Positions 28,748 through 36,901 of a stretch of 64,000 bases of DNA are shown here, piece by piece. Positions within the stretch are counted from its first letter, which is position 1. Every line of letters starts with the position of its first letter. The notes beneath the pieces are model-generated. The model worked only from the letters and a program-made list of their open reading frames with translations, was not told the DNA's origin and searched no databases. The stretch lies in the NCBI RefSeq assembly GCF_028607085.1, contig NZ_CP117411.1, positions 2,728,001 through 2,792,000 of the forward strand, written 5' to 3'. A program made the translations under genes and the position numbers. Source of the DNA: Sphingomonas naphthae (GTDB lineage Bacteria; Pseudomonadota; Alphaproteobacteria; Sphingomonadales; Sphingomonadaceae).

Positions 28748-29740
28748 TCACGGCAGCGCGGCGAACCTGCGCTGGTGTCCCTCGACCATGTCGCTCAACG
28801 CCCTCGGTGCGAGCACTTCGACGGAGTCGCCCCAGGAGTAGAGGTGCCACGTCATCTCCAGATGCCCTGACGCTTCAAACCGCACGATGAGCGATCCGTC
28901 GTCGAGCTCCTCGGTCGTCTGCTTCGGGTGGAAGACATATCGACGTGCCCGCGCGGCGGCGTCCGGCTTGAATCGCCACGCGACCTCTCCGAACTCCCTC
29001 TCGCTTTCGTAGGAACCGAAGCCCTTCTCGGCGTGCTTCTTGAGATTGAAGCCGGGATCGATCTCGAAGGTTTCATCCAACAGCTCGGCCTTGTAGATCT
29101 CCTCTACCCGATAGTGCTGAAGGTTGGCCTTCGGGCCCTTGGCGGCGTCGCGCGCGACGAGATACCTGCGGACCCCGAGAAGCAGCCCGTGCGGTGCTAC
29201 GACGCGCTCCTTGGGCGCCTCATCCTCGCGTTTTCGGTAGAGGATGCGAAGCAGGTTGCAGCCCTTGAGCGCCTCATAGATCGCATCCACCACGTGTTCA
29301 TCGCCCGCAGGCCTGGGTCCCGGGCGGGCTGCATGACCCAACGCCTCGAGAACGGCCTCCTTGTCGACATCGAGCCGCGTGCCCTGCTCGGGCGGAATGA
29401 GAGCTTTGACTTTCCGCTCTAAGCTGCGCGCTCGAGATGCTTCCTGCTTCATTCCAGCGCGATCGAGCTGATTTATAGCCTCAGCAAGAGCAACAAGTTC
29501 GTCTGAAGATGGTGTAAGAAGGTGAGCTATATGTCGGGCGGGGATGGACCACCGAGCGCGCCGGTCATCCCCAATTCGATATTCGGTTTGGGGAAACGCT
29601 GCCTGCAGCGCGACTGTCATCCTTTGCGCCGTACGCTCCGAGCACGCAAATTCTTCTGCGATATCTTCCACGGTGACACCACGACGGCCTGTCGCGAGCA
29701 TCGCAAGTCTAAGAAGCTCCTGCGCTTTCGAAAATGCCAT
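28748..29740 (-). CDS. WYL-domain transcriptional regulator
   Basis: 330-aa regulator. The N-terminal HTH (ELLRLAMLATGRRGVTVEDIAEEFACSERTAQRM) is followed by a WYL domain (LRILYRKREDEAPKERVVAPHGLLLGVRRYLVA) and the C-terminal WCX-type extension (VAWRFKPDAAARARRYVFH). WYL proteins often repress or activate defence and DNA-damage genes. It is divergent from the nuclease-helicase gene, with only 64 bases between the chosen starts. ATG 29740 is preferred, as upstream in-frame starts run into the divergent gene. Confidence 0.88.
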   Translation of the reverse strand: MAFSKAQELLRLAMLATGRRGVTVEDIAEEFACSERTAQRMTVALQAAFPQTEYRIGDDRRARWSIPARHIAHLLTPSSDELVALAEAINQLDRAGMKQEASRARSLERKVKALIPPEQGTRLDVDKEAVLEALGHAARPGPRPAGDEHVVDAIYEALKGCNLLRILYRKREDEAPKERVVAPHGLLLGVRRYLVARDAAKGPKANLQHYRVEEIYKAELLDETFEIDPGFNLKKHAEKGFGSYESEREFGEVAWRFKPDAAARARRYVFHPKQTTEELDDGSLIVRFEASGHLEMTWHLYSWGDSVEVLAPRALSDMVEGHQRRFAALP

Positions 29741-29754
29741 GATACAAGCTCCCC

Positions 29755-29767
29755 GACAGCTTTTGAC
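29755..29767 (+). repeat. 13-bp direct repeat, copy 1 (before nuclease-helicase gene)
   Basis: GACAGCTTTTGAC, identical to 33129-33141. Similarity continues as CxCGCxTG in both places. It stands about 40 bases before the nuclease-helicase start. Confidence 0.7.
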
Positions 29768-29786
29768 ACCCACGCATGCTATGTCA
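29764..29786. promoter_or_regulatory. inverted repeat TGACA-N13-TGTCA in the WYL/nuclease divergent promoter
   Basis: TGACA at 29764-29768 and TGTCA at 29782-29786 flank 13 bases that include the short palindrome GCATGC. TTGACA here also fits a -35 box for the rightward gene. It overlaps one copy of the 13-bp repeat GACAGCTTTTGAC (29755-29767). A candidate WYL operator. Confidence 0.4.
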
Positions 29787-29804
29787 GTGAAAAGGGTGGT
29801 GTCG

Positions 29805-32800
29805 ATGCGTGTAACTGACGGCGGGTTGCGACTGTCCGCGTCCGATCTGATGAGGTTCAAGGGATGCCGTCACGCATCGACGCTCGATCTACGGCTGATC
29901 GAGATCGGCGATCTGACGCCCTGCGCGGACGGTGAGGAAGCCGAGTTGCTGCAGCGGCAGGGGGACGCGCACGAGCTAGCCTTCCTCGAGGAGCTCCGCT
30001 CGTCTGGTCGAACGGTGGTCGAGATCCCCAAGGACGGCATTTCACTCGAGAAGTCGGTCGGACTCACGGCGGATGCCATGCGCCAAGGCCCCGACATCAT
30101 CTTCCAAGGTGCGCTTCTTGGCGGTGTGTGGGGAGGCTATTCCGATTTCCTCCAACGCGTCGACACCCCTTCAGGACTGGGGGAATGGTCGTACGAAGTC
30201 GTCGACACCAAGCTCAAGCGGAAGCCTGATCCTAAGCACGTCCTTCAGCTCTCCCTGTATTCCGACCTCATTGCCGAGGTTCAGGGTGTTCGCCCGGAAG
30301 CCGCCCATCTCCAGCTCGGGGACGGGTCGCGTTTCACGGTCCGTCTGGGTGACGTGTCCTCGTACGCGCGGCACGCCCGCGCCGTGTTCGAGGTCTTCCT
30401 ACAGGAGCGTCCCGCGACCCGGCCCGATCCCGTCTCGAGTTGTAGCCTCTGCAGATGGCGGGAACACTGCCACTCGGAGTGGGAGAGGCTTGACAGTCTC
30501 TCGCTGGTCGCCGGCATCACGAAGTCGCAGCGCCGCAAGATCGAGGCGGCCGGAGTGACCACGCTCGCCGGGCTGGCGGATGCCGATGCCCGGATCCCGA
30601 AGCTCTCGACCGAGACCCAGTCCCGCCTGCGGGTTCAGGCTCAGCTCCAGAGACGCCGCCGGGCGGGCGGCGCTCCCGGCTTCGAACTGCGTGACTTCGA
30701 GCCCGGCAAGGGGTTGGGACTGCTGCCCGAGCCCGATGACGGCGATCTCTTCTACGACATCGAGGGCGACCCCTATTACGAGGGTGGGCTCGAATACCTT
30801 CACGGTGTCCGGTTCCGTGAGGGCGAGGACTGGGCATTCCGGGCCTTCTGGGCCCACGACCGCGAGGCCGAAGGCCGATCCGTCGCCGAGCTGCTAGATT
30901 TCTTCGTAGCGCATCTGCGCCGCCACCCGAAGGCGCGAATCTATCACTACGCGAACTACGAGATCGCTGCGCTCCGGCGCCTGACCTCGGAGCACCGGGT
31001 CGGCGAGGCGGCGATGGACCAGCTGCAGCGCGAGAGGCGCTTCGTCGATCTCTTCAAGGTTGTCTCTGGATCCCTCATCGCTTCGGAGAAGGGCTACTCG
31101 ATCAAGGACCTCGAGGCCTTCTACATGCCGAAGCGCGATGCCGACGTGGCCACGGCCGGCGCGAGCGTTGTCTTCTACGAGAACTGGCGCGAGTCGGGCG
31201 ATGATGGCCTTCTCGAGAAGATCTACGACTACAACAGGACGGACTGCATCTCGACGCAGCTTCTGCGCGACTGGCTCGTAAGCGACGTGAGGCCTGCTGA
31301 GATGCCTTGGCCTCAGCTCGGCGAGATCTCCGACGCTGGCGCCTTGGCCAACGTCGATGCCGAGGACGCCGAGGTCGCGGCTCTGCGGGCGAGGCTCGCG
31401 CCGGTCGGCGAACGTCTCGGCGACGGAGTCGCAGAGCTGCTTCTGGACCTGAACTTCTTCCACAAGCGGGAGGACAAGCCCGCATGGTGGGCGATCTTCG
31501 ATCGTCTCGCGCAGGAAAGCGAGGAATTGATCGACGACCTCGAGTGCATTCAAGGACTGGAGGCCGTCGGCGAGGCCGTGAAGGTGACCGCCAAGTCGTT
31601 CGAGCGCACCTACAGATTCCCCACGCAGGAGACGAAGCTGCGCGCCGGCAAGAAGCCCTGCGTGAAGCCCGCAGCGATGCCCGAGGACGTTGACCTTCGC
31701 GAGATCGATGTGACGGCGGGAACGCTCGTGCTGCGCCGATCGAGTGCGAAGGGCGCGCTTCCTGACAAGCTCGATCTGATCCCGGGAAAGCCGATTGCCA
31801 ACGCGACGCTTCGGACCGCCGTTGCCGCTGTGACCGAGGCCGTAATCCAAGACAGCGGCACGACTGCAGCGGTCGAACATCTCCTCACGCGTGCCGCTCC
31901 GCGGTTCGTCGACGGCTCTCGCCCTGAAGGCATCATCGACGAGACCGGAGATCTCCCCAGTCAGACGAGCGCCGCCATCGGTGCGATGGACGGCACGACG
32001 CTTGCGATTCAGGGGCCGCCGGGGACGGGCAAGACCTATGTCAGCGCGCTTTCGATCCTCGACCTTGTGCGGGCCGGCAAGCGTGTCGGCGTCTCGTCGA
32101 ACAGCCACAAGGCGATCGGCAATCTTCTTGAAGCGGTCGCGGATCGCGCGCTTGCGGAGGGTGCGCGCTGCCGTGTCGTGCAAAAGGCCAACGATGAAGG
32201 CGACGACGACCGACATCCCGGCATCTCCCTCGTGTCAGCCAACGATGCTCCCGAGATCGCGACCGCCGACGTCGTCGGGGCTACTGCTTGGCATTTCGCC
32301 AGATACGAGGCGCCTGCCTTCGACTATCTCTTCGTTGACGAGGCGGGGCAGGTCTCGCTCGCCAACATCGTCGCTATGTCGCGAGCAGCCAGGAACATCG
32401 TGCTGGTCGGGGATCCCATGCAGCTGCCGCAGCCGCTTCAGGGATCGCATCCCGGCCGGAGCGGAGAGTCTTGTCTGGAATACCTGATCGACGGCCACCG
32501 TGTCGTGCCTGCGGATCGGGGGATCTTCATGCCGGTGAGCCGACGCATGCACCCCGCCGTCTGCAGCTTCATCTCAACCGCAGTCTACGAGGACCGGCTC
32601 CACTCCGACGACGCAGCCGGCCGACAGGATCTCAGGCTCACGACGGGGCATTCGCTCATCGGTGCGGGGGTTCGCGCTGTCTCTCATGTCGGACGATCGC
32701 AGGTTTGTCCGGAGGAGATCGCGGCCGTTCGCGACCAGATCAAGGCGCTGGTCGGGTCGACCTACCGGAGCCGCGATGGCTCCGAGAGGGTTACTGACTA

Positions 32801-33140
32801 CGCCGACATCCTCGTTGTGGCACCCTATAACGCACAGGTGAACGCCCTTCGTGCGGCGCTTCCCCAGCAGGTCCGGGTCGGAACGGTGGACCGCTTCCAG
32901 GGGCAGGAGGCTCCGGTCTGTCTCGTGTCCATGGCGACGTCGAGCGGCGAGGAGCTACCCCGGGACATCGAGTTCCTGTTCTCGCTCAACCGGATCAATG
33001 TCGCGGTCTCCCGCGCTCAGGCGGCAGCCATAGTATTCGCCAGCCCGCTGCTGCTCGAAACGCCGTGCCGGTCGGTGCAGGAGATGTCGCTCGTCAACGC
33101 GCTCTGTCTCCTGCGGGAGCACGGGGGTGACAGCTTTTGA
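29805..33140 (+). CDS. RecB-like nuclease (TM0106 type) + DEDD exonuclease + SF1 helicase fusion
   Basis: 1111-aa protein with three parts. Residues about 1-220 are a RecB-like nuclease: GGYSDFLQ, EVVDTKLKRKP and HVLQLSLYSDL give the D...D-x-K...Q-x3-Y pattern, and a Cys cluster (CSLCRWREHC) may hold Fe-S. Residues about 300-490 look like an RNase-H-fold exonuclease (FYDIEGDP, YHYANYE, YNRTDCIST). Residues about 720-1110 are an SF1 helicase with Walker A GPPGTGKT (from 737), Walker B FVDEAGQ and C-terminal VDRFQGQE and NVAVSRAQ. ATG 29805 or 29781 could be the start. The partner is the divergent WYL regulator. A role in DNA repair or phage defence is inferred. Confidence 0.87.
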   Translation: MRVTDGGLRLSASDLMRFKGCRHASTLDLRLIEIGDLTPCADGEEAELLQRQGDAHELAFLEELRSSGRTVVEIPKDGISLEKSVGLTADAMRQGPDIIFQGALLGGVWGGYSDFLQRVDTPSGLGEWSYEVVDTKLKRKPDPKHVLQLSLYSDLIAEVQGVRPEAAHLQLGDGSRFTVRLGDVSSYARHARAVFEVFLQERPATRPDPVSSCSLCRWREHCHSEWERLDSLSLVAGITKSQRRKIEAAGVTTLAGLADADARIPKLSTETQSRLRVQAQLQRRRRAGGAPGFELRDFEPGKGLGLLPEPDDGDLFYDIEGDPYYEGGLEYLHGVRFREGEDWAFRAFWAHDREAEGRSVAELLDFFVAHLRRHPKARIYHYANYEIAALRRLTSEHRVGEAAMDQLQRERRFVDLFKVVSGSLIASEKGYSIKDLEAFYMPKRDADVATAGASVVFYENWRESGDDGLLEKIYDYNRTDCISTQLLRDWLVSDVRPAEMPWPQLGEISDAGALANVDAEDAEVAALRARLAPVGERLGDGVAELLLDLNFFHKREDKPAWWAIFDRLAQESEELIDDLECIQGLEAVGEAVKVTAKSFERTYRFPTQETKLRAGKKPCVKPAAMPEDVDLREIDVTAGTLVLRRSSAKGALPDKLDLIPGKPIANATLRTAVAAVTEAVIQDSGTTAAVEHLLTRAAPRFVDGSRPEGIIDETGDLPSQTSAAIGAMDGTTLAIQGPPGTGKTYVSALSILDLVRAGKRVGVSSNSHKAIGNLLEAVADRALAEGARCRVVQKANDEGDDDRHPGISLVSANDAPEIATADVVGATAWHFARYEAPAFDYLFVDEAGQVSLANIVAMSRAARNIVLVGDPMQLPQPLQGSHPGRSGESCLEYLIDGHRVVPADRGIFMPVSRRMHPAVCSFISTAVYEDRLHSDDAAGRQDLRLTTGHSLIGAGVRAVSHVGRSQVCPEEIAAVRDQIKALVGSTYRSRDGSERVTDYADILVVAPYNAQVNALRAALPQQVRVGTVDRFQGQEAPVCLVSMATSSGEELPRDIEFLFSLNRINVAVSRAQAAAIVFASPLLLETPCRSVQEMSLVNALCLLREHGGDSF

Positions 33141-33141
33141 C
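33129..33141 (+). repeat. 13-bp direct repeat, copy 2 (before beta-grasp-like gene)
   Basis: GACAGCTTTTGAC overlapping the stop codon of the nuclease-helicase gene, 46 bases before the small downstream gene. It is identical to 29755-29767. Confidence 0.7.
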
Positions 33142-33186
33142 GTGCCCGCGTGAGAAACCCTTCTTGTCGAAGAAGGAGACAGTGAC

Positions 33187-33447
33187 ATGGGTTTCTCGGA
33201 CATCGGACTGCGCCACATCGTCGACGTTGACGGTCAGCTCCTTGGGATCGACGCCGGTGTGATCGACACCAGCGCGCTTCTCGCCCGCGCGAACCGGCCC
33301 AGCGATCGGCAGCTCTGGGTGGTGAGGGCGGGAGAGCGTTTCCTGCTCCAGTCGAAGCAGCGAATTCACCTGTCCGAGGACGAAGTCCTGTTCTTCGAGA
33401 CGACGGCCGTGAACAGCTGGCACGCCGCGAACCTGCTCGCTGCCTGA
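33187..33447 (+). CDS. small protein, possible ubiquitin-like beta-grasp (multiubiquitin-type) fold
   Basis: 86-aa soluble protein. The pattern IVDVDGQLLGIDAGVIDTSALLARANRPSDRQLWV...LSEDEVLFFETT resembles one repeat of bacterial multiubiquitin proteins: an I-x-DG start, a T-x-x-LL helix, a central strand and an acidic turn ending in E-x-x-F-F-E-T. There is no C-terminal Gly-Gly, and no E1, E2 or JAB gene nearby. GAAGGAG precedes the ATG. The fold is a guess by eye; the gene itself looks real. Confidence 0.65.
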   Translation: MGFSDIGLRHIVDVDGQLLGIDAGVIDTSALLARANRPSDRQLWVVRAGERFLLQSKQRIHLSEDEVLFFETTAVNSWHAANLLAA

Positions 33448-35780: not shown

Positions 35781-36629
35781 TCATGCCGCTGATAAGTTAG
35801 CTTCGGTGTCCTCATGCCCCTGGCGGGGGCGGTTGGTAAACTCGGCGGGCGCCATGCCGCCGAGGCTGCTGTGCGGACGCACGGTGTTATAGTCTGTCCG
35901 CCATGCCTCGATGATCCGTCTCGCCGCAGCCAGCGAGGAGAACAGGTGCTCGTTCAGGCACTCGTCGCGCAAGCGACCATTGAAGCTCTCGACAAAGCCG
36001 TTCTGCTGCGGCTTGCCCGGCGCGATGTAATGCCACTCCACGCCCGTGTCCTGGCACCAGGCGAGGACGGCGTGACTGGTCAGTTCGGTCCCGTTGTCGC
36101 TGACCACCATGCATGGCAGCCCACGACGCTCGGCGATGGCCGTCAGCTCCCGCACGACACGCCGCCCTGACAGCGAGGTATCGACGATGCAGGCCAGGCA
36201 CTCCCGGCTGTAGTCGTCGATGACATTGAGCAGGCGGAACCGCCGGCCGCAGGCCAATGCATCCGACACGAAGTCGAGCGACCAGCGCTGGTTGGGTTCC
36301 TGCGGAATCGCCATCGGCGCCCGCGTGCCCAACGCTCGTTTTCGGCCGCCGCGCTTTCGCACCGTCAGCCGCTCCTCGCGATACAGCCGGTACATCTTCT
36401 TCAGGTTCATGCCCTTGCCTTCACGCCGGAGCAGGACCGCCAGCCGGCGATAACCGAACCGACGACGCTCGTTGGCGATCTCGCGCATCCGTTCGCGCAC
36501 AGCGTCGTCCTTCCCGCGAAGCGGCTCATATTGCCATGCCGACCGGTTGACCCCGATCAGTCTGCAAGCGCGACGCTCGGAGAAGCCGTGGTCGGCCATC
36601 AGCTTCTCCACCGCAGCGTAGCGATCCAC
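35781..36629 (-). CDS. IS3-family transposase OrfB, copy 2
   Basis: 282-aa DDE transposase subunit, identical in sequence to the product at 8660-9508 (D119, D178, E214 all present). Probably expressed mainly as OrfAB by frameshifting. Confidence 0.93.
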
Positions 36630-36637
36630 AGACCGGG

Positions 36638-36901
36638 TCAGTTTTTTCCCAGCAGATCCTTCAGCGCCGACACGTCCAGCATCGACTCCGCCAGCAGCTT
36701 CTTCAGCCGACGGTTCTCATCCTCGAGCGTGCGCAACCGCGCCGCCTCCGACACGGTCATGCCGCCGTACTTCGCCTTCCAGTTGTAGAACGTCGCATCG
36801 CTGATGCCATGCTTCCGGCATAGCTCGGCGGTCTTCACGCCCGCCTCGTGCTCACGCAGCACGCCAATAATCTGGTCCTCGGTAAAACGGCCTCGACGCA
36901 T
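36638..36901 (-). CDS. IS3-family transposase OrfA, copy 2
   Basis: 87-aa HTH and coiled-coil protein identical to the product at 8388-8651. The in-phase slippery heptamer A AAA AAC is at 36641-36647 on the minus strand. Confidence 0.93.
36641..36647 (-). promoter_or_regulatory. -1 ribosomal frameshift heptamer of IS copy 2
   Basis: A AAA AAC in phase before the orfA stop, as in copy 1. Confidence 0.7.

Follow-up and report, generated by a model that had tools for sequence, protein, structure and literature searches.

Results

Gene organization of the cassette

We analyzed a 64,000-nucleotide stretch of Sphingomonas naphthae DNA (contig NZ_CP117411.1, positions 2,728,001–2,792,000), termed the window, which carries a cassette of three genes encoding a WYL-type transcription regulator, a nuclease–exonuclease–helicase fusion enzyme and a small protein with a predicted ubiquitin-like fold (Table 1). 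A sequence-only reading of the window had pointed to a 13-bp repeat, GACAGCTTTTGAC, at 29755–29767 and 33129–33141, and both positions could be verified. On both strands of the 4.31-Mb genome, exact copies of this 13-mer occur only twice, once ahead of the fusion gene and once ahead of the small gene, and a reversed control pattern yielded no match in the same genome. Comparison with relatives revealed a conserved palindrome, GGTGAC-N7-GTCACC, of which the repeat represents one strand and which we term the operator.

Table 1 Positions of the cassette genes and of the predicted regulatory elements in the window.
Feature	Position	Strand	Details
HTH-WYL-WCX transcription regulator (HTH, helix-turn-helix)	28748..29740	-	330 residues; transcribed away from the fusion gene; WYL and WCX matched above Pfam cut-off
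Operator 1, CCCC-GAC-AGCTTTT-GAC-ACCC	29751..29771	+	WYL/fusion intergenic region; position kept in relatives and in held-out rhizobial plasmids
Predicted -10 element TATGTC	29780..29785	+	12 nucleotides past operator 1; G at -14
TM0106-family fusion enzyme: RecB-like nuclease, RNase_H_2 DEDD exonuclease (residues 315–492), superfamily 1 (SF1) helicase (residues 719–1079)	29805..33140	+	1111 residues; start ATG at 29805, stop at 33140
Operator 2, GGGT-GAC-AGCTTTT-GAC-GTGC	33125..33145	+	overlaps the fusion gene stop codon; predicted to serve the small gene
Predicted weak -10 element GAAACC	33154..33159	+	12 nucleotides past operator 2
Small beta-grasp (multi-ubiquitin fold) protein	33187..33447	+	86 residues; disordered tail ending LLAA; fold from AlphaFold2 and Foldseek

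The operator in the genome and in relatives

Scanning the window alone for the repeat with mismatches allowed gave three matches against 0.81 expected, a number reached by 7 of 100 shuffles and hence not significant; the significance of the repeat rests instead on its exact copies and on its conservation in relatives. A whole-genome scan for the palindrome with one mismatch returned 18 places compared to 5 for the reversed control, neither window site being among them.

A position matrix derived from 23 sites detected 67 sites in 40 loci of the clade versus 0–1 in shuffles, a count that is partly circular because the 23 training sites are included in it. Plasmids held out from the matrix (Rhizobium NZLR1, etli 8C-3, R. 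leguminosarum, Shinella, S. changnyeongensis) likewise have a site at each of the two positions, scoring 25–32. An independent exact 18-base pattern for the operator, TGACANNTTYTGWCAYSC, gave 12 matches spread over 9 of the 12 carrier genomes searched, in every case within the cassette, and its control pattern had no match in these genomes. We further searched 250 genomes of relatives, mostly of the same order and amounting to ~0.8 Gb, where TGACANNTTYTGWCAYSC occurred nine times in eight genomes, four of which belong to the 13 genomes harboring this WYL type (P = 3e-4). Five of the nine occurrences adjoin this WYL type or lie within ~17 kb of it, and at least two of the remaining ones are located inside unrelated coding genes. 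The absence of the repeat from homologous loci had been named as the observation that would speak against its relevance; instead, the site is conserved in relatives.

Promoter architecture

The TTGAC end of the repeat had been proposed to serve as the -35 box of both genes. This assignment was not borne out: in copy 1 the spacing between TTGACA and the -10-like TATGTC is only 11 bp, and the true -35 position is occupied by the N7 spacer of the palindrome. Aligning 23 fusion-gene and 16 small-gene promoters placed the best -10 match exactly 12 nucleotides past the palindrome in both sets, and 18 of the 23 and 14 of the 16 promoters, respectively, retain a G at -14. For the small gene, many relatives have GAATCT as -10 element, and an A is found at its second place in 94%. 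At the -35 position the mean match to TTGACA was 1.3 of 6 for the fusion-gene and 1.2 of 6 for the small-gene promoters, compared to 2.3 for random DNA. Because the -35 position has almost no consensus match, these promoters appear to depend on an activator.

DriD, a DNA-damage activator of Caulobacter crescentus, binds the site ATACGAC-N7-GTCGTAT over the -35 element at a constant distance to the -10 element, in promoters with 1–2 of 6 matches at -35 and a conserved G-14, and it activates the operon divergent from driD but not driD itself (PMC12340889). The predicted promoters of the window, combining a palindrome with a 7-nucleotide spacer over the -35 position with a fixed distance to -10, agree closely with the DriD promoters in architecture, and it is mainly for this reason that we call the regulator an activator. 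A PafBC-type promoter with a single half-site, first considered from the spacing between TGTCA and -10, was set aside, as the site is a palindrome with a 7-nucleotide spacer like that of DriD.

The WYL regulator

The divergently encoded WYL protein, already suspected to control both genes, remains their probable regulator. Matches to HTH_23 and HTH_11 had significant E-values below the Pfam cut-off; together with the WYL and WCX domains they give the domain order of DriD/PafBC-type activators, and the protein aligns to DriD over the full length. Its best solved relatives are the DriD structures 8tp8 and 9pfq (phmmer, E ~1e-46). Within the WYL pocket, the arginine of the YR motif conserved in DriD is kept.

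We rejected the candidate assignment of the protein as the DriD orthologue. In the phylogenetic tree the window protein and its orthologues form a clade of their own beside DriD with strong support, and DriD groups with another, closer homologue of the same genome (L167, identical to L100), which has 43% identity to DriD compared to 37% for the window protein; moreover, the outer operator bases differ. Judged from sequence, the regulator is thus related to DriD but distinct from it, and has an operator of its own. A search of PADLOC-DB 2023 with the regulator matched generic WYL models but no full-length system component. The genome also contains a third DriD-like stretch with an internal TGA (G000:C1:601556-601897, L102), probably a broken paralogue.

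Conservation and mobility of the cassette

The proposal that the three genes belong together is borne out by loci of the Sphingomonadales, in which the trio and its order are conserved. The search for this neighborhood in other genomes was also run against the possibility that the genes are rarely neighbors, and this was not what we found: the WYL/nuclease pair and its sites are kept in Sphingomonadales and on Rhizobium plasmids, with differing flanks. A comparison with 39 related loci showed that these share the WYL and fusion genes with the window but not its flanking genes, except for weak single matches. Among the 250 relatives, the fusion was found in 16, the WYL type in 13 and the small gene in 4–5 genomes, and the co-occurrence amounted to P = 3e-5 for WYL and fusion and P = 5e-6 for the small gene and WYL, values that serve as guides only, because relatedness among the sampled species makes them non-independent. 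Plasmid records yielded 47 with a fusion homologue and 43 with a WYL homologue, many of them conjugative.

Two genomes (G011 and G166; loci L153 and L154) have the small ubiquitin-fold gene arranged in tandem with the WYL gene, the two being separated by the operator, suggesting that these two genes may form a unit of their own, as no TM0106 gene was found in either genome. On the Novosphingobium plasmid pSA2 (L190 1-10321), the WYL/TM0106 pair adjoins genes for an error-prone polymerase, dinB, alkB and an SOS-response-associated peptidase; no operator copy scored in this locus. An IS3-type transposase pair of open reading frames, named from its sequence, lies ~2.3 kb from the small gene of the window (35781-36901, minus strand), and plasmid-borne cassettes of relatives are likewise located near transposase and integrase genes.

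Genes following the operator in relatives

Besides the two genes of the window, the operator precedes other genes in related loci, namely an SbcD-like metallophosphoesterase (exonuclease; L003, L004, L007), a DUF4258 gene followed by the DrmD helicase (L005, L006, L018), and RmuC (L013, L020). With weaker spacing, it also precedes a small open reading frame ahead of a DUF2235-like gene in L017, L019 and L026; in L014 a DUF2235 (Tle1-like) gene comes after the site-marked small gene. For L014 this DUF2235 (Tle1-like) assignment comes from a profile test, and for the other three from the look of the sequence. In one genome (G042) the DrmD helicase and an McrBC pair reside in the same island as the cassette.

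Short open reading frames of 60–90 residues, one of them a DUF3892 member, stand directly behind the operator in L017 (683-946 and 5483-5671), L019 (8437-8640) and L026 (7478-7732).

On two Rhizobium plasmids (L181 12386-16005, L182 12386-15998), the WYL/TM0106 pair is followed by the operator and genes for a multiubiquitin-domain protein, a ThiF adenylyltransferase, a DUF6527 protein and RmuC. This multiubiquitin-domain protein ends in GQS and looks unlike the small protein of the window in sequence, and for this reason we regard the slot as common to both without inferring common descent. On these plasmids a ubiquitin-like operon is tied to a regulator of the DNA-damage type.

The fusion enzyme

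The combination of a RecB-like nuclease, a DEDD exonuclease and an SF1 helicase in one chain, as initially proposed, was supported by matches to TIGR03491 (300 bits at a curated cut-off of 97), PF13482 (RNase_H_2), and PF13086 and PF13087 (AAA_11/AAA_12 helicase). All checked nuclease, exonuclease and helicase residues are present (D114, D134, K136, Q148, D318, E320, D480, K743, D845, E846, Q1032, R1070) and nearly invariant across 63 homologues. Four cysteines, C21, C213, C216 and C222 (window 29865-30470), are arranged like those of the Cas4-like iron–sulphur nucleases; they are found in ~24 of the 63 homologues including this clade and are replaced in the others. Their presence or absence among the homologues offers a natural split for asking what an iron–sulphur cluster does in this enzyme. 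PADLOC-DB 2023 returned only partial helicase or nuclease matches for the enzyme (MkoA, MkoC, Hhe, Cas4), and phage records contained no homologue of the fusion gene.

The small ubiquitin-fold protein

The AlphaFold2 model of the small protein, with a mean predicted local distance difference test (pLDDT) value of 77, has a confident core comprising residues 10–72, with pLDDT values of 85–88, and a disordered tail. The best Foldseek matches of this predicted model were bacterial multi-ubiquitin proteins including BubA, with a probability of 1.00 and query-length TM-scores of 0.58–0.67, corroborating the earlier description of the gene as beta-grasp-like and specifying the predicted fold as multi-ubiquitin. 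PF14452 (Multi_ubiq) was matched by 2 of 16 family members (best E 8.9e-6), and the window protein alone had no match. Neither a sequence-profile search against solved structures nor a viral structure library gave a significant match, and PADLOC-DB 2023 gave none.

The tail varies in sequence and length, and the carboxy-terminus is AA in 18 of 19 members and VA in the remaining one; among long open reading frames, 11 of 176 end in AA. The tmRNA (transfer-messenger RNA) tag of the genome is ANDNEALAIAA, so that the small protein, with its disordered tail and a terminal AA like that of the tag, has the features of an ssrA-type degron. On sequence grounds, the simplest reading of the tail is a ClpXP degron.

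Discussion

Taken together, we consider it probable that the trio constitutes one mobile regulon, in which a DriD-like WYL activator, itself probably activated by single-stranded DNA (ssDNA), controls DNA-processing and defence genes via the operator. Operator binding, activation over repression, the ssDNA signal, the degron and the biological role are what we infer in the following scheme. The WYL protein would bind the palindromes centered on the -35 position and recruit RNA polymerase to promoters almost devoid of a -35 element of their own, thereby switching on the divergent fusion gene and the small gene. If DriD and PafBC are a guide, the regulon would respond, without involvement of LexA, to ssDNA that arises when DNA is damaged or stalled or invades the cell. 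The enzyme encoded by the fusion gene may then unwind and degrade DNA, either for repair resection or for destruction of foreign DNA, and the small protein, probably short-lived owing to its predicted degron, could have a transient role as effector or regulator. In relatives, the operator would recruit further enzymes such as SbcD, DrmD, RmuC and others into its slots. It speaks for this scheme that the neighboring genes marked by the site encode DNA nucleases and helicases.

Several observations weigh against this scheme. The outer half-site bases of the operator differ from those of DriD. Four loci (L007, L017, L019, L022) lack a recognizable small gene, and G011 and G166 possess the WYL and small genes with no fusion-gene match in a genome-wide search; the three genes are thus not bound to occur together. 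In the WYL pocket, the second basic position is a glutamine in the window protein and an arginine in most relatives, and the third pocket arginine position of DriD is Glu or Asp throughout the clade. The ligand may therefore be other than ssDNA, which is a putative ligand here, since the pocket residues are only partly conserved.

Two alternatives concern individual parts of the cassette. Repeat copy 2 includes the TGA with which the fusion gene stops (33138-33140; the protein ends in ...GGDSF*). Together with the non-significant mismatch scan of the window, this would suit a repeat whose second copy only reflects coding conservation and whose first copy arose by chance. We rejected this candidate and regard it as highly improbable: in L008/L009 the fusion gene ends otherwise (GGNAF*) and an intact site follows ~155 nucleotides further on, adjoining the small gene, and in L014, L153 and L154 the site accompanies the small gene distant from any fusion-gene end. 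As the site travels with the small gene in these loci, a coding-conservation origin of copy 2 is excluded; the site moreover runs symmetrically beyond the stop codon and is confined to the cassette genome-wide. The small protein, on the other hand, might be a true ubiquitin-like modifier conjugated to targets instead of a degron-tagged effector, in line with its multi-ubiquitin fold and with the multiubiquitin, ThiF and DUF6527 genes occupying the same slot on the two Rhizobium plasmids. Yet we consider conjugation quite unlikely: no ThiF or DUF6527 gene adjoins the small gene in the window, and the tail ends in AA and not in GG after a stretch variable in length and sequence. An E2-family search of the genome was negative, but was run without a positive control and is hence not taken as proof of absence.

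The remaining alternatives address the direction and the purpose of the regulation. WYL proteins beside defence systems are known as repressors (PMC9122601), the operator overlaps the core promoter, as would also suit repression, and the cassettes of relatives adjoin restriction and other defence genes; the WYL protein could thus be a BrxR- or CapW-like repressor of a defence cassette, released by a ligand from phage or damage. We deem this unlikely, as the poor -35 match of 1.2–1.3 of 6, below the random value, makes the promoters look activator-dependent, the fixed 12-nucleotide spacing to -10 speaks for an activator contacting the polymerase, and the closest solved homologue is an activator. 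A regulon devoted solely to DNA repair, responding to chromosomal breaks or stalls without phage defence, would be a variant of the activator scheme in purpose and not in mechanism. It is a serious possibility, although not our favored one: the genes of the DriD regulon are repair and checkpoint genes (PMC12340889), SbcD and RmuC are among the site-marked neighbors, and on pSA2 the pair adjoins error-prone polymerase, dinB and alkB; against this, the patchy distribution (16 of 250 genomes), unrelated flanks and plasmid carriage are typical of defence genes, as are DrmD, McrBC, TIR and SIR2 neighbors. From the genes accompanying the site, a role in phage defence is plausible, and a response to DNA damage would fit equally well.

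The families of the enzyme and of the WYL protein have been described before, as has the ubiquitin fold. The early impression that the set does not correspond to a described system consequently held in part: the fusion enzyme itself is not new, as it belongs to the annotated family TIGR03491, whereas the regulon, the operator rule, the mobility and the exchangeable cargo had no description in the literature searched, mostly outside subscription papers. The same search found no functional paper on TM0106/TIGR03491. Tentatively, the cassette might constitute a previously undescribed mobile, SOS-independent defence regulon, with a DriD-like activator sensing the ssDNA that invading or damaged DNA exposes, an operator of its own that differs in sequence from the chromosomal DriD site, a core nuclease–helicase, exchangeable modules (SbcD, DrmD, RmuC, the ubiquitin-like operon) and a self-destructing ubiquitin-fold protein limiting or executing the response. 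If true, new modules would join a defence regulon by acquiring one 20-bp site. The precise operator rule, GGTGAC-N7-GTCACC with 12 nucleotides to -10, apparently places unrelated DNA-processing and defence genes under one control, and it provides a means of finding new members, as any gene behind the site in these islands is a candidate. It would also link ssDNA-sensing, SOS-independent WYL regulators such as DriD and PafBC to mobile defence-like cassettes.

Comparison with known systems

The fusion enzyme belongs to the TM0106 family with a carboxy-terminal SF1 helicase, as judged by the curated cut-off and the catalytic residues checked, and nucleases of this family are present in many genomes without this regulator (L028-L082). 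The small protein has the predicted fold of the BubA multi-ubiquitin proteins of the Bub systems, but is single-domain, AA-ended and without an adjacent E1 or peptidase gene. BrxR of bacteriophage exclusion (BREX) and CapW of cyclic-oligonucleotide-based anti-phage signalling systems (CBASS) are, as in the window, WYL proteins beside a DNA-targeting, defence-like cassette with an operator at the promoter; both are repressors, whereas the promoter geometry of the window points to activation.

PafBC of mycobacteria is an ssDNA-triggered activator of the WYL-WCX family, the family type of the window regulator. In its heterodimer a single subunit touches DNA, and only when RNA polymerase is also present, in contrast to the palindromic site found here. 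The pafBC genes form an operon with pafA, encoding the ligase of the ubiquitin-like modifier Pup (PMC5656591), and a ubiquitin-fold protein under a putative DNA-damage-type regulator would parallel this link. The closest resemblance is to DriD, with which the regulator has in common the HTH-WYL-WCX architecture, the GAC-N7-GTC core of the operator, a site over a poor -35 element with G-14, and the orientation of the gene divergent from the predicted activated operon. The two differ in the outer operator bases, ATAC/GTAT for DriD versus GGT/ACC in the window, and in their reach, as DriD targets scattered chromosomal genes and the window regulator would target its local cassette, presumably following the same SOS-independent DNA-damage logic.

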